32,481 nucleotides of DNA from Omnitrophica bacterium GWA2_41_15 (GTDB taxonomy: Bacteria > Omnitrophota > Gorgyraeia > Gygaellales > Profunditerraquicolaceae): the NCBI GenBank assembly GCA_919901915.1, contig CAKKQB010000010.1, positions 1 through 32,481 on the forward strand, given 5' to 3'. Positions within the stretch are counted from its first letter, which is position 1. Each line of letters starts with the position of its first letter. Shown piece after piece: positions 5,248 to 30,605 of the stretch. The notes beneath the pieces were generated by a model. That model saw only the letters and a program-made list of their open reading frames with translations, was not told the origin of the DNA and ran no database searches. The position numbers and the translations under genes were made by a program.

Positions 5248-5429
5248 GAGGCTGTTACGAAATGCTCTTTTTCGTCATTCCGGCGAAAGGTCAAGCCCAG
5301 TTAGGCTCTGACACTTCCTCGGGCAATTCTGCCCTCGGTCGCCGGAATCCAGGACTCTTTGATTCCAATAAACTTATGGATACCGGCTTTCGCCGGTATG
5401 ACGATTTTAATGCATTTCGCAACAATCCC
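5248..5429. mobile_element. MITE-like element with GGCTGTTRCGAAATGC-type inverted ends
   Basis: Left end GGCTGTTACGAAATGC (5250-5265) and right end GCATTTCGCAACAAT (5412-5426) are imperfect inverted repeats, with ACTAT directly repeated outside (5243-5247 and 5430-5434). Inside is a GTCATTCCGG...GGTATGAC hairpin of a type widespread between bacterial genes, itself interrupted by the element at 5289-5341. The element at 25167-25283 shares the same ends. It has no transposase gene, so any movement would need help in trans. Confidence 0.6.
5289..5341. mobile_element. Second copy of the short element found in rnpB
   Basis: Positions 5295-5322 are identical over 28 bp to 30279-30306 within rnpB. 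After a hairpin whose stem differs but still pairs (GGGC/GCCC here, GGCC/GGCC there), both copies resume with CTCGGTCG. Here it splits a GTCAT-type repeat hairpin between CGGCGAAAG and CCGGAATCC, so it is nested. GGTC occurs at both ends of both copies. Confidence 0.8.
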
Positions 5430-5466
5430 ACTATCGCTATACGCTAAACGCTATCCGCTATCCATT
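5430..5466. repeat. Word-repeat array, TAGCGTA family, over the acsD stop
   Basis: Tandem CGCTATA/CGCTAAA/CGCTATC heptamers. The stop codon of acsD (5451-5453) lies inside the array and the last residues of AcsD are encoded by it. Confidence 0.7.
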
Positions 5467-6411: not shown

Positions 6412-6480
6412 TCGGCGTATAGCGTATAGCGTATAGCGTATAGCGGATAGTTTTTACTCTACGCTATCCGCTCTACGCTA
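6412..6480. repeat. Tandem heptamer array (GCGTATA x4) forming a hairpin between acsV and acsD
   Basis: Four perfect GCGTATA units at 6415-6442 plus a GCGGATA unit, then a spacer, then complementary CTACGCTATCCGCTCTACG words. The array fills the whole acsV-acsD junction, supplies the acsV stop (6473-6475) and abuts the acsD ATG. Confidence 0.85.
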
Positions 6481-8411: not shown

Positions 8412-8696
8412 AAAAAATTTGGTTCTTTCGTATTTATTTAAGGTAATAAGTATATATCTAGTTTGCGTAAATGCCTGGGCGGGCAAGCCCGCCCCTACGC
8501 GGCGATTTACAGAGACTATTAGCGACCCGTAGGGGCGGGCTTGCCCGCCCAGATACCACGAGTCCCGGCAAATTGTTATTATAAACAAATTCTATCGGTT
8601 TTTCTCTGACAATTGATGCTTTTTTATTTCCTCCTTACCTATCAAGTCCTTACATTAATTCCGTTACACTTCAAACAAAAGAACCAAAAATTTTTT
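8412..8696. mobile_element. Probable MITE-like element carrying a REPIN-like hairpin pair
   Basis: Left end AAAAAATTTGGTTCTTT (8412-8428) and right end AAAAGAACCAAAAATTTTTT (8677-8696) are imperfect inverted repeats. The left end continues CGTATTTATTTAAGGTA, matching the end of the element between gatA and gatC (18114-18135). It may be a composite of several insertions. Confidence 0.4.
8475..8552. repeat. REPIN-like inverted pair of GC-rich hairpins
   Basis: 8475-8499 and 8528-8552 are exact 25-bp inverted repeats. Each contains its own hairpin (GGGCGGGC-AA-GCCCGCCC) followed by CTACG. The arrangement matches 23979-24057, with a different spacer. Confidence 0.8.
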
Positions 8697-12689: not shown

Positions 12690-12746
12690 TTAGTATGCCC
12701 GTTAGCCAGTGTGCCGGTTTGTCGGCTAACTGGCTAACTGCCTAAC
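12690..12746. repeat. GCTAACTG-family word array over the tsaD stop
   Basis: Words such as GTTAGCCAGT, GCCGGTTTGTC and GGCTAACTGGCTAACTG fill the gap between tsaD and the mgtC-type gene, and the tsaD TAG (12742-12744) is inside the array. Same family as 13037-13107, 16529-16604 and 17879-17956. Confidence 0.75.
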
Positions 12747-13785
12747 TAGATAGCTCCAAATCCAAATCTAACCCCGATCTACTGCCTTTTTTAAATAATT
12801 GGAAACCAAATCCGGCAACCATTGCCGCGTTATCCATACAAAAATTTTTAGCCGGAAATAAACAATCAATACCGCTCCTTTTCGCGGCATCTAAAAATTT
12901 TTCCCTTAGCCGGTTGTTTACTACTACTCCACCGCCAATAACAAGCCGGTTTGTTCTTTTCAACTCACAGGCTAAAAAAGATTTTTTAATTAACGCATCT
13001 ATAGCTGCTTCCTGAAACGAAGCGGCAATATCTCTGGTTTGCCTGTTTGCCTGTTTGCCTGTTTGCCTGCTTAACTGACTAACCGGCGAACCGGCTAACC
13101 GGCTAACATAATAAAACACTGCCGTCTTAATCCCGCTGAAACTAAAATTCAGCGCCTCCCCTGTATCAGAACAACGAAATTTTATTTTATTAGGATTACC
13201 GTTTTTTGCCAATTTTTCGATAAAAGGCCCGCCCGGATAACCCAACCCTAAAATTTTAGCTACTTTATCGAATGCCTCTCCGCAGGCGTCATCCCGCGTT
13301 TGCCCTAAAAGTTCTATCCTGTCAAAATCTCCGACAAAGTATAAACTCGTATGCCCCCCGGAAACCACCAAAGCCACAAAAGGAAATCTTACTTTAGCGG
13401 CGCGGCTTGCTCCTTTCACGTTCAAAAAATTAGCGTAAATATGACTTTTAACATGATTAACGCCTAATAAAGGAATGCTTAACCCAAAGCTTAGCGCTTT
13501 AGCAAAAGATATCCCCACAAACAAAGAGCCTATGAGGCCCGGCCCGCTAGTAACACATATTAAGTTTATATCTTTGAAATTAAGCTTTGCTTCTCTCATG
13601 GCGAGATCCGTCACATCAGTAATTGTCTCTAATTGCGCGCGTGACGCAATTTCAGGAATAACCCCGCCGTAAATTTTATGAAGCTTAAGGCTTGAACTAA
13701 TCGCGCAAGACAAAACTTCCTTTCCGTTTTTAACTACCGCGGCGGAAGTTTCATCACAGGAAGTTTCAATACCTAAAGTATACAT
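12742..13785 (-). CDS. tsaD: tRNA N6-adenosine threonylcarbamoyltransferase
   Basis: Catalyses the last step of t6A37 formation on ANN-decoding tRNAs, with TsaB and TsaE as usual partners (not in the window). The 347-aa product starts LGIETSCDETSAAVV and has SGPGLIGSLFVG, the metal-binding NHVKSH pair near residues 110-115, VSGGHTSLYF, LGYPGGP, FSFSGIKTAV and GGGVVVNNRLRE. Between YYVSRL and DIAASFQEA, about residues 227-250, lies a low-complexity insert (including RQTGKQANRQT) encoded by a tandem 8-mer array; the usual family has a shorter, different linker there. The enzyme should still fold because the insert sits between helices. The stop codon comes from another array. No Shine-Dalgarno. 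Confidence 0.95.
   Translation of the reverse strand: MYTLGIETSCDETSAAVVKNGKEVLSCAISSSLKLHKIYGGVIPEIASRAQLETITDVTDLAMREAKLNFKDINLICVTSGPGLIGSLFVGISFAKALSFGLSIPLLGVNHVKSHIYANFLNVKGASRAAKVRFPFVALVVSGGHTSLYFVGDFDRIELLGQTRDDACGEAFDKVAKILGLGYPGGPFIEKLAKNGNPNKIKFRCSDTGEALNFSFSGIKTAVFYYVSRLAGSPVSQLSRQTGKQANRQTRDIAASFQEAAIDALIKKSFLACELKRTNRLVIGGGVVVNNRLREKFLDAAKRSGIDCLFPAKNFCMDNAAMVAGFGFQLFKKGSRSGLDLDLELSS
13037..13107. repeat. In-frame tandem 8-mer array inside tsaD
   Basis: Four perfect GTTTGCCT units (13037-13068) followed by CTTAACTGACTAACCGG and GGCTAACC words. In the coding direction this encodes the low-complexity linker of TsaD. Four 8-mers total 32 bp, so the flanking words must restore the frame. 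Confidence 0.9.
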
Positions 13786-16528: not shown

Positions 16529-16604
16529 TGCCGGTTCACTGGCTAACCGGTTAACTGGCTAACCGGTTCACTGGCTAACCGGTTAACTGGCTAACCGGCT
16601 AACA
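16529..16604. repeat. ACTGGCTAACCGGTTA 16-mer tandem array between gatA and gatB
   Basis: About four tandem 16-mers with minor variation (TTAACT or TTCACT), preceded by TTGCCGG. It occupies nearly the whole 87-bp junction and leaves no Shine-Dalgarno for gatB. Confidence 0.9.
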
Positions 16605-16608
16605 ATAA

Positions 16609-18105
16609 TTATAACTTTGGTTTCATTTTATGCCATTCAGTACTTTGTTCATAAGCATACGCAACCCTAAAAAGCATTTCTTCGTTAAATGGCTTAGCCA
16701 AAATCTGTAAACCCACGGGGAGCCCCTTTTTAGTAAAACCACAAGGTATGGATATCGCGGGTATTCCAGATAAATTTGCCGATATAGTATAAATATCAGA
16801 AAGATACATCTTTAAGGGATCCTCTACCTTTTCTCCAATTTTAAATGCCGGCGTAGGTGAAGTCGGTGTAACTATGCAATCAAATCCCTTAAAAACATGA
16901 TCAAAATCCTGCTTTATAAGCGTACGCACTTTTAACGCGCGCAAATAATAAGCATCATAATATCCATGAGACAAAATAAAAGTGCCGAGGATTATTCTTC
17001 TTTTGGCTTCTTCCCCAAACCCTTCTCCCCTTGTTTTTTTATACATTTCAATTAAATTCCGCGTCTTGTTCCTTGCGTCTTGAACTCTAAATCCGTACTG
17101 CACTCCGTCAAACCTCGCAAGATTTGAACTAGCCTCAGCAGTCGCGATAATATAATACACCTCAACCGCGTACTCTGTATGAGGCAAAGACACATTTTCA
17201 AAAGAAGCTCCTTGCGATTTTAATTTATTTATTGCCTCATTTATTATATCTTTTACTTCTGGATCAAGGCCTTCGGGAAAATATTCTTTAGGAAGAGCGA
17301 TTTTTATCCCCTTAATATCCATCTCCAAAGATTTTGTATAATCAGGAATATCTATGTTAACGGAAGTTGAATCATTAGGGTCATGTCCGGCAATAACGTT
17401 CATCAGTAACGCGGAGTCCCTGATATCCTTAGTAATCGGGCCAATTTGATCAAGGCTGGACGCGAAAGCAATCAGGCCATAACGGGAAACCCTGCCATAA
17501 GTAGGCTTTAAACCAACTACCCCGCAAAAAGATGCTGGTTGGCGGATTGAACCGCCCGTATCCGAACCTAACGCCCAAATCGCCTCATCAGCCGCGACAC
17601 AAGCAGCAGACCCTCCGGAAGAACCACCCGGAACGCATTCTAAATTCCAAGGATTTCGCGTAGAGCCAAAGCAAGAATTTTCCGTTGAAGAACCAAAAGC
17701 AAATTCATCCATATTAGTCTTTAAGGGCGATATAATCGCGCCAGCTTCTTTTAATCTCTTAATAACCGTAGCATCATAAGGCGGCTTGAATCCCTCAAGA
17801 ATTTTAGAACAGCATTCGGTATTCAAACCATCGGCGCAGATGTTGTCTTTTATGGAAATGGGTATACCTTGTAGATCTGTTTGCCGGTTTGCCGGTTTGC
17901 CGGTTTGCCGGTTATTATTATAACTGGCCAACTGGTTAACTGGCCAACTGGTTAACCCGTCTTCAACGCGCGCATAGGCTTTGACTTCAGAATCTATCGC
18001 ATTTATTCTTTTATTAAGGCAGGATACAATTTGATCAGAAGTAATTTCTTCTCTGCTCAACTTCTCAATAAGCTCATGCGCGGTTAATTTATTCAATTCC
18101 ATCAT
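16609..18105 (-). CDS. gatA: Aspartyl/glutamyl-tRNA(Asn/Gln) amidotransferase subunit A
   Basis: The amidase subunit of GatCAB, releasing ammonia from glutamine. From the ATG at 18105 it has 498 aa, slightly long. The amidase-signature triad is present: Lys in ISIKDNI, and the two Ser in [10 protein letters not shown] and [27 protein letters not shown] and [10 protein letters not shown] follow. Starts further upstream (from 18150) would add residues encoded by the adjacent hairpin element. About residues 50-77 are low-complexity ([14 protein letters not shown]) where other GatA proteins have an ordinary helix-loop before LxGIPI; this piece is encoded by a tandem 8-mer array. The catalytic core is intact. 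No Shine-Dalgarno. Confidence 0.95.
17879..17956. repeat. In-frame tandem 8-mer/16-mer array inside gatA
   Basis: Four perfect GTTTGCCG units (17879-17910), a short TTATTATTA spacer, then two AACTGGCCAACTGGTT 16-mers. It is the same architecture as inside tsaD, in another gene and with a one-base different unit. Confidence 0.9.
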
Positions 18106-23029: not shown

Positions 23030-23102
23030 TATAGCGGATAGCGCGGATAACGTAGAGCGGATAGCGAAACTATACGCTATACGCTCTACGCTATACGCTA
23101 TC
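23030..23102. repeat. TAGCGTA-family hairpin array filling the tyrA-cmk junction
   Basis: Left arm of TAGCGGATAGCG-type words, GAAAC spacer, right arm TATACGCTATACGCTC and further units. The tyrA TAG stop (23098-23100) is inside and the cmk ATG follows by three bases. Confidence 0.85.
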
Positions 23103-23978: not shown

Positions 23979-24057
23979 TTGGGCGAGCAAGCTCGCCCCT
24001 ACGCGAATCGCTACATAATTCCTACGTATTGCCGCGTAGGGGTGGGCTTGCCCACCC
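23979..24057. repeat. REPIN-like inverted hairpin pair between aroF and tyrA
   Basis: Hairpin GGGCGAGC-AA-GCTCGCCC (23981-23998) and hairpin GGGTGGGC-TT-GCCCACCC (24040-24057) face each other, joined by CTACGCG/CGCGTAG inner edges. Both hairpins keep pairing although their stem sequences differ from each other and from 8475-8552, which suggests selection on structure. Confidence 0.8.
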
Positions 24058-28086: not shown

Positions 28087-28719
28087 TTAATTTCTCGCGG
28101 GATATCTTTGTTTATAAACCAGGCTCAATAATTCCTCGGTTGTTTTCGCGTTAGGCGAAATCTCTAACGCCTTTTTTATCATGCTAGAAGCCTCTGCTTT
28201 TTTGTATTCTAACTGCGTGAGCACAGCCAAAGCCTCTTCTTCTATATCTATTGTTTTTACTTTCTGCTCTCCTGTCAAATCGTCCCGTATCAGGCCAAAC
28301 TTACCTAATTTATTCTGAAGTTTCGCCACAATCTCTTTTGCCCTTTGCCTGCCTATCCCCGGCAAAGACTGCAAAAAATTCATATCCGCTCCTTCTATCG
28401 CGCGCACCACGCAAGATATAGGCTTATTCAGCGCCCTTAATGCTGCCCGCGGCCCAACCCCAGAGACAGTAATAAACGCTTCAAAAAATTCCTTCTCCAC
28501 TTCATTCAAAAAACCAATCAACATAGGAGTACTCTTGGAAGGCTCTACCTGAAGATAATGATAAGTTACAAGGCTTATCTTACCGTCATCGGTCATACTC
28601 TCATCCAACCGCTGCATAACCGTCAACGGCATAAATACCTTGTAGGAAATACCGTTAATATCAATAAGCAAAAAATTCTCACCCTTTTCAATAACTTTTC
28701 CGCAAATACGCGCAATCAT
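28087..28719 (-). CDS. ruvA: Holliday junction branch migration protein RuvA
   Basis: Tetrameric junction-binding subunit that loads RuvB. 210 aa: OB-fold (1-63), two helix-hairpin-helix motifs (ITVSGVGPRAALRAL and LQSLPGIGRQRAKEIVAKL), acidic linker, and the C-terminal RuvB-binding three-helix domain (EEALAVLTQLEYKKAEASSM, in part). ruvB is not adjacent. The ATG abuts a TTAGTGG array with no Shine-Dalgarno. Confidence 0.96.
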   Translation of the reverse strand: MIARICGKVIEKGENFLLIDINGISYKVFMPLTVMQRLDESMTDDGKISLVTYHYLQVEPSKSTPMLIGFLNEVEKEFFEAFITVSGVGPRAALRALNKPISCVVRAIEGADMNFLQSLPGIGRQRAKEIVAKLQNKLGKFGLIRDDLTGEQKVKTIDIEEEALAVLTQLEYKKAEASSMIKKALEISPNAKTTEELLSLVYKQRYPARN

Positions 28720-28721
28720 GG

Positions 28722-28842
28722 TTAATAATTAGTGGTTAGTGAATAGTGATTGGTGGTTAATAATTAGTGGTTAATAATTAGTGGTTAGTGGACAATGCTA
28801 TATCGATCACTACTCACTATTCACTATTCACTAATCACTGTT
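28722..28842. repeat. TTAGTGG/TCACTAT word hairpin between ruvC and ruvA
   Basis: Left side is built of GGTTAATAATTAGTGG and TTAGTGAATAGTGA words, right side of CACTATT/CACTAAT heptamers, with a unique spacer near GCTATATCGAT. It fills the 104-bp junction, contains the ruvC TAG (28824-28826) and encodes its final VISE residues. Confidence 0.85.
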
Positions 28843-30131: not shown

Positions 30132-30152
30132 AAATATCATTTAAAATTTTAA

Positions 30153-30605
30153 GGGACAGGCAGAATAAGCCGGGTTCTGTTTCGATGCGAATTTCCGCAT
30201 CTAAGTGGCCATTTCTCTCGATCCTGGCGTTACCACCAAGACTCTAGCGGCTTACCCGAGACTTTTTCCGTCGGTCGAGCCCAGTTAGGCTCTGACACTT
30301 CCTCGGCCATTTCGGCCTCGGTCGCAGGAAACGCATCGGACTAATGCTCGTCTCTTATTTTACCTTGCTCCACATGGGGTTTTCCGTGCAACTCATATCG
30401 CTATGAACTACGGTGGTCTCTTACACCACCTTTTCACCTTTGCCACCCGCTATAACACAGGTGGTAGTTTATTTTCTGTGGCACTTTCCCTATCCGCCGC
30501 TTCACATTGGCGAACGCTCTATATTAAAGAGCATGCTGTCCTCCGGAGCCCGGACTTTCCTCCCCCGCGCCATATAGCGCGGAAGTAGCCACACCTACCC
30601 ATCCC
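30153..30605 (-). ncRNA. rnpB: RNase P RNA, bacterial type A
   Basis: Catalytic RNA that trims tRNA 5' ends. The minus strand has the universal blocks: GAGGAAAGTCCGG near the 5' end and ACAGAACCCGGCTTAT near the 3' end, AAACCCCATGTGGAGCAAGG before P15, and GGGTAAGCC, the tRNA-CCA-binding loop. P1 pairs GGGATGGGTAG (30605 down) with CTGCCTGTCCC (up to 30153), allowing G-U pairs, which sets the ends at about 453 nt. P16 pairs GAGAC with GTCTC, P17 is GCAT-loop-ATGC, and P18 is visible. Between P17 and the 3' strand of P16 lies an extra arm carrying the element at 30271-30324. Starts a few bases after the rnhA stop. Confidence 0.96.
30271..30324. mobile_element. Short insertion element inside the RNase P RNA
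   Basis: About 47 bp bounded by the direct repeat TCGGTCG (30271-30277 and 30318-30324). It contains two hairpins, AGCC/GGCT-type (about 30278-30293) and GGCC-ATTTC-GGCC (30304-30316). A near copy is at 5289-5341. Flanking RNA pairs as TTTCC/GGAAA, so the element appears to sit in the loop of an extra hairpin. Confidence 0.75.

Follow-up and report, generated by a model that had tools for sequence, protein, structure and literature searches.

The window, by which we mean the whole stretch of 32,481 nucleotides analysed here (contig C10), belongs to the Omnitrophota MAG GWA2_41_15, a genome of 1.47 Mb in 66 contigs, and the only rnpB match in this genome, a type A RNase P RNA gene, carries an inserted palindromic element of which a second copy lies elsewhere in the window (Table 1). 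When named genomes were scanned with the ArgD protein of this genome, its closest relatives were found among Candidatus Omnitrophota. In the order of the RNA strand, the region reads P16 (GAGAC), P17 (GCATTAGTCCGATGC), TTTCC, element, GGAAA, and P16 (GTCTC); the 3′ strand of P16, GAGAC in the window, is at 30258-30262, and the helix at 30333-30347 corresponds to P17 of type A RNase P. The element occupies J17/16 as the loop of a host hairpin, with P16 and P17 still in place, and its position in an extra TTTCC/GGAAA hairpin between P17 and P16, proposed by an earlier sequence-only reading, is borne out by the sequence. Folding predicts the TTTCC/GGAAA stem both with the element and with the element removed. 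At J17/16, the rnpB genes of relatives have 5-7 nt (e.g., GTTATGA) or an unrelated hairpin, for which reason the host hairpin may be older than the element, and the element is matched in 0 of 29 rnpB loci of relatives.

Table 1. Features of the rnpB locus and of the second element copy, in window coordinates.
Feature	Position	Strand	Basis
rnpB, type A RNase P RNA	30150..30604	-	RF00010 235.9 bits, full model 1-367
Element within rnpB, 51 bp (GGTCGAGCCC...CCTCGGTC)	30273..30323	+	R1 79.5 bits, E 2.7e-18
Element hairpin 1 (GTC-G-AGCC...GGCT-CT-GAC)	30274..30296	+	Compensatory changes in 7/9 pairs, 25 members
Element hairpin 2 (CC-TC-GGCC ATTTC GGCC-TC-GG)	30301..30321	+	Every cell paired, 25 members
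TTTCC arm of host hairpin in rnpB J17/16	30265..30269	+	Sequence; predicted fold with and without element
GGAAA arm of host hairpin in rnpB J17/16	30327..30331	+	Sequence; predicted fold with and without element
P17 with loop (P6 partner), GCATTAGTCCGATGC, uninterrupted	30333..30347	-	Comparison with relatives' rnpB
Second window copy of element, 52 bp	5289..5340	+	R1 78.0 bits
Left half of CGTC-type REP (CGTCATTCCGGCGAAA) interrupted by second copy	5273..5288	+	
Right half of CGTC-type REP (GCCGGAATCCAG) interrupted by second copy	5341..5352	+	

The 51-bp unit, GGTCGAGCCCAGTTGGGCTCTGACACTTCCTCGGGCATTTCGCCCTCGGTC, is 17 codons long, ranges from 50 to 53 bp across the copies in the GWA2_41_15 genome, and has a G+C content of 65% vs 39% in the window. 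The rnpB copy and the copy at 5.3 kb had been read as identical over 28 bp; the identity is exact but runs to 29 bp (30278-30306 = 5294-5322), past which, as that reading also had it, the stems differ and still pair (GGCC-ATTTC-GGCC vs GGGCA-ATTC-TGCCC) before both copies continue into CTCGGTCG. The covariance model R1, built from 14 copies, returned 57 matches in the genome, 53 of them at E ≤ 1e-3, which amounts to ~53 dispersed copies; the 29-mer core recurs at 27 sites with ≤3 mismatches and its reversed control pattern at 0, and we conclude from both counts that the repetition is not due to chance. Among 43 copies extracted, there are 34 distinct sequences, with a median pairwise identity of 0.87 and a lowest value of 65%. 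The element also forms tandem arrays with a period of 49-51 bp and partial terminal duplications, and several of these arrays are located at contig ends or N gaps.

Strong covariation within the class backs both hairpins. In an alignment of 25 members drawn from several families of the class, 92.8% of cells pair, changes on both sides are seen in 10 of 15 pairs (5.0 on average in shuffles and 0-2 in slid versions), and covariation scores 0.292, compared with 0.144 after shuffling; pair 35-44 of hairpin 2, for instance, is GC in 12 members, AU in 10, and CG in 2. The pairing, the compensatory changes, and the covariation score together indicate that the two hairpins are conserved as such. Their arrangement as two adjacent stems is unlike that of REPs, which have a single stem (8-9 bp in the CGTC type, 5-13 bp in the GTAG type).

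The ends of the element are nearly constant. In a table of the junctions of 48 copies, whose comparison also set the borders of the rnpB element, nearly every copy starts with GGTC or GGCC and ends with CTCGGTC, and the base to the right is G in 48 of 48. A net 51 bp is gained and all target bases are kept, with no duplication beyond one or two ambiguous G. The TCGGTCG repeats said to flank the element in rnpB are indeed present in the sequence but are not a target duplication, as they consist mostly of the element's own GGTC ends and neighbouring bases, two of which (TC, on the left) belong to the host. Most copies, including that at 5289-5340, split a CGTC-type REP at a single exact point, CGTCATTCCGGCGAAA^GCCGGAATCCAG, and the element-free REP, CATTCCGGCGAAAGCCGGAATCCAG, occurs ~65 times in the genome (≤3 mismatches). 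Both orientations of the REP are used (C56 copy). Some REP-located copies have longer flanks in common, and these may stem from joint copying of element and REP instead of separate insertions. GTAG-type palindromes hold or adjoin further copies (L139 and L140, and, next to GTAGGGGC, L120 and L121), and the usual site in relatives is GAGATT^GCTTCG of a different palindromic repeat. The stretch of the window at 5273-5403 contains opposed CGTC-type REPs in a longer repeat that has ends like GTTGCGAAAT...ATTTCGCAAC and many relatives in the genome.

Protein genes are interrupted in the same exact manner. Long open frames cross many copies, which are read in either orientation and in more than one frame, and the predicted proteins have inserts of the GRAQLGSDTSSGISPSV type. 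The element-bearing families include argD (TIGR00707, 472 bits), rdgB, PriA, a vWA/Bat-like protein, a protein that combines an NFACT-R domain with an MnmA/ThiI-like part, and others. Alignments confirm in-frame copies in four of them: ArgD reads RKFG-QAQLGSDTSSAIPASVG-QGRYE vs RKFGQGRYE in relatives, with exactly 17 extra residues, the same number by which the vWA protein exceeds an 81%-identical relative and the MnmA-like protein exceeds nine relatives; RdgB has exactly 34 extra residues relative to five relatives, equal to two tandem units. ArgD homologues in the PDB, shorter here by 13 net residues, also do without most of the insert, and an AlphaFold model of ArgD has it between helix 111-127 and strand 148-152, at a pLDDT of 53 that is too weak to place it or to judge whether, like an RPE insert, it is solvent-exposed. 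At the same point, the argD gene of the same-genus genome G001 (L159) contains a different, 32-residue insert with inverted-repeat-like ends (CTTCGACTACGCTCAG), the middle 30-mer of which is unique and the 16-mer end of which occurs three times, so that its nature as a repeat is unproven. The linker of PriA bears copies not only in GWA2_41_15 but also in G080 and G151, which belong to the same family. The insertions in an epimerase-like protein, a T2SSC-like protein, PriA, and the tail of an RNA-binding protein are putative, judged mainly from the open frame, as are those in three genes (L129, L137, L138) where a complete REP together with the element appears to be in frame. A copy in lpd (C31:40890) scored 27 bits only, in a loop that varies by 2-4 residues, and was for both reasons left out of the insertion count. 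Five of the element's six frames are without stops, which is not a special property, since 39% of shuffles do equally well.

The exact core was found in none of 146 relatives, in none of 84,980 genomes (a collection that possibly does not include the element's own genome), and in no viral contigs, and the copies of relatives thus had to be sought with a looser covariance model. By this model, 11 of the family's 108 genomes and 49 of the 334 in the class have members, own genome counted; the class members are divergent, and the best outside GWA2_41_15 scores 77.9 bits. G001, the only same-genus genome examined, is free of copies by both the exact core and the covariance model.

We consider it very probable that the repeat represents a mobile palindromic element, short, non-autonomous, and built of two hairpins, that has spread through the genome, inserts precisely, and is tolerated in genes. 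The element inserts its 51 bp always directly 5′ of a G without target loss; most copies lie at the edge of the loop in other REP palindromes, and further ones in the rnpB hairpin loop and in open reading frames. It may move as hairpin-forming single-stranded DNA on which an enzyme, perhaps of the IS200/IS605 type (Y1), works in trans. Insertions in loops or linkers would lengthen an RNA or protein instead of breaking it, and the decorated RNA and proteins probably keep working; the survival of copies in genes may be explained by the 17-codon unit, the five stop-free frames, and landing in loops or linkers. The genome has three Y1 transposase genes, of which the element flanks none, and as its source they were rejected, one having its own palindromes (CCTGTCCGACC...GGTCGGACAGG) and one having GGGACAGACAC-type inverted repeats. 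At L191 (1250-2080), a Y1 transposase gene lies between palindromes CCTGTCCGACCTACGCGGTCGGACAGG, a REPtron-like unit of a different repeat family.

The element might instead spread without a dedicated enzyme, via template switching during replication or via recombination of hairpins whose short GG/GC ends are alike, with REPs as both donor and acceptor. Such a route would suit the lack of a transposase linked to the element, the bias towards other palindromes, with REPs used in either orientation (as the C56 copy illustrates), and the tandem units with their period and partial terminal duplications; however, the exact, full-length insertions at unrelated argD, MnmA-like, and vWA sequences with no target bases lost, and the constant ends of 48 junctions, which look like the work of an enzyme recognising ends, make it possible but on the whole unlikely. 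Only tentatively do we entertain a class-wide, undescribed two-hairpin family in Omnitrophota, without either REP tag, that recognises loops or loop edges in the hairpins of other palindromes and of a ribozyme and is moved by an enzyme or route unconnected with any known transposase. We find it improbable that the copies are kept for a benefit to the host, for instance as a structured site in RNA or DNA or as a surface peptide, beyond mere tolerance: the structure is conserved across the class, yet a structural requirement for mobility explains the covariation equally well, the proteins read the element in different frames and in either orientation and hence have no common peptide, and G001, of the same genus, has no copies at all. 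A reading of the element as an ancestral, variable part of rnpB, and of the 5.3-kb copy as a duplicated rnpB fragment, would fit the variable hairpins in or near J17/16 of relatives, but it is refuted by the genome-wide copies, among which rnpB flanks accompany only the rnpB copy itself, and by the element-free rnpB loci of relatives; we regard it as extremely improbable, and the mobile-looking character first read from the sequence is supported. An artefact of the assembly or library, for instance an adaptor that became joined to contigs, is scarcely credible either, for despite the high G+C content and the arrays at contig ends or N gaps, the diversity of the copies, the divergent members with compensatory changes in relatives from other assemblies, and the preserved reading frames speak against it.

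A close parallel to this element is found in the Rickettsia palindromic elements, or RPE families (Ogata et al. 2000, 2002; accounts in PMC10969869 and PMC3767692), which are likewise hairpin-forming repeats that lie in frame in unrelated housekeeping genes. One gene region can also be hit in separate lineages: the biotin ligase gene region by WPE/eRPE-4 (PMC3767692), and here priA and perhaps argD. In contrast to the RPE unit of 100-150 bp, the Omnitrophota element measures 51 bp, and we therefore do not file it as an RPE but set it beside RPEs by description; it further differs in belonging to another phylum, in having two adjacent hairpins, in sitting inside a ribozyme, and in lacking the CGTC/ATGAC motif at its ends. 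The notion of an independent counterpart of the Rickettsia elements is supported, and the analogy is better than expected because the element is in frame in protein genes as well. The occurrence of RPEs in Rickettsia rnpB, assumed in the earlier reading, found no support in the papers that we searched.

REPs of the GTAG and CGTC types are also short palindromes that are in part intragenic, CGTC REPs having no dedicated transposase and some REPs lying inside other palindromes (Di Nocera et al. 2013, PMC3733652). The Omnitrophota element carries neither tag, its ends being GGTC/GGCC and CTCGGTC; it has two stems rather than one and is the guest where the CGTC-type REP is the host, and, whereas the RAYT gene of GTAG REPs is flanked by the repeat, it flanks 0 of 3 Y1_Tnp genes. 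Coxiella QMITE1 and QMITE2 (150-400 bp, with terminal inverted repeats plus 2-11-nt direct repeats) resemble it in having ~50 copies that overlap genes, and are a source of sRNAs; they differ in that their effects on functional genes are at gene 3′ ends (PMC5896051). Unlike MITEs, the element has direct (GGTC...GGTC) rather than terminal inverted repeats at its ends and no target-site duplication, the net gain being exactly 17 residues.

Very small mobile repeats of cyanobacteria were reportedly treated by Elhai in 2008. STRRs are tandem oligomers, whereas the Omnitrophota element is a 51-bp two-hairpin unit; STRR sequences are reported from within rnpB of heterocyst-forming cyanobacteria (Vioque 1997, cited in PMC2858038).

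As far as the literature shows, the kind of element is already known, and the element family, phylum, and form are new within the literature examined. Coding palindromes were initially presented as peculiar to Rickettsia and later reported, as intragenic REPs, in some other bacteria; the Omnitrophota element is an independent, structurally different family from an uncultured phylum. Its targets include a ribozyme of the host, and relatives provide exact element-free sites. The 17-residue insertions in housekeeping enzymes and the one ribozyme expansion form a clean natural series, which makes the lengthening of proteins and RNAs by short repeats directly testable, and annotators of Omnitrophota genomes should expect such inserts.

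The window contains further repeats. Octamer tandem arrays (GTTTGCCT, GGCTAACC, and similar) at 13037-13107 and 17879-17956, and also at 12724-12747 and 16531-16603, are a second kind of protein-lengthening repeat in the GWA2_41_15 genome, lying in frame in tsaD and gatA and adding ~15 and ~12 residues relative to homologues of known structure. Heptamer arrays of the CTATACG and TTAGTGG types (5431-5461, 6415-6450, 23070-23101, and 28719-28839) are mostly intergenic and resemble cyanobacterial STRRs. GTAG/CTAC-type palindromes, GGGCGGGCAAGCCCGCCCCTACGCG, occur in inverted pairs at 8475-8552 and 23980-24057.
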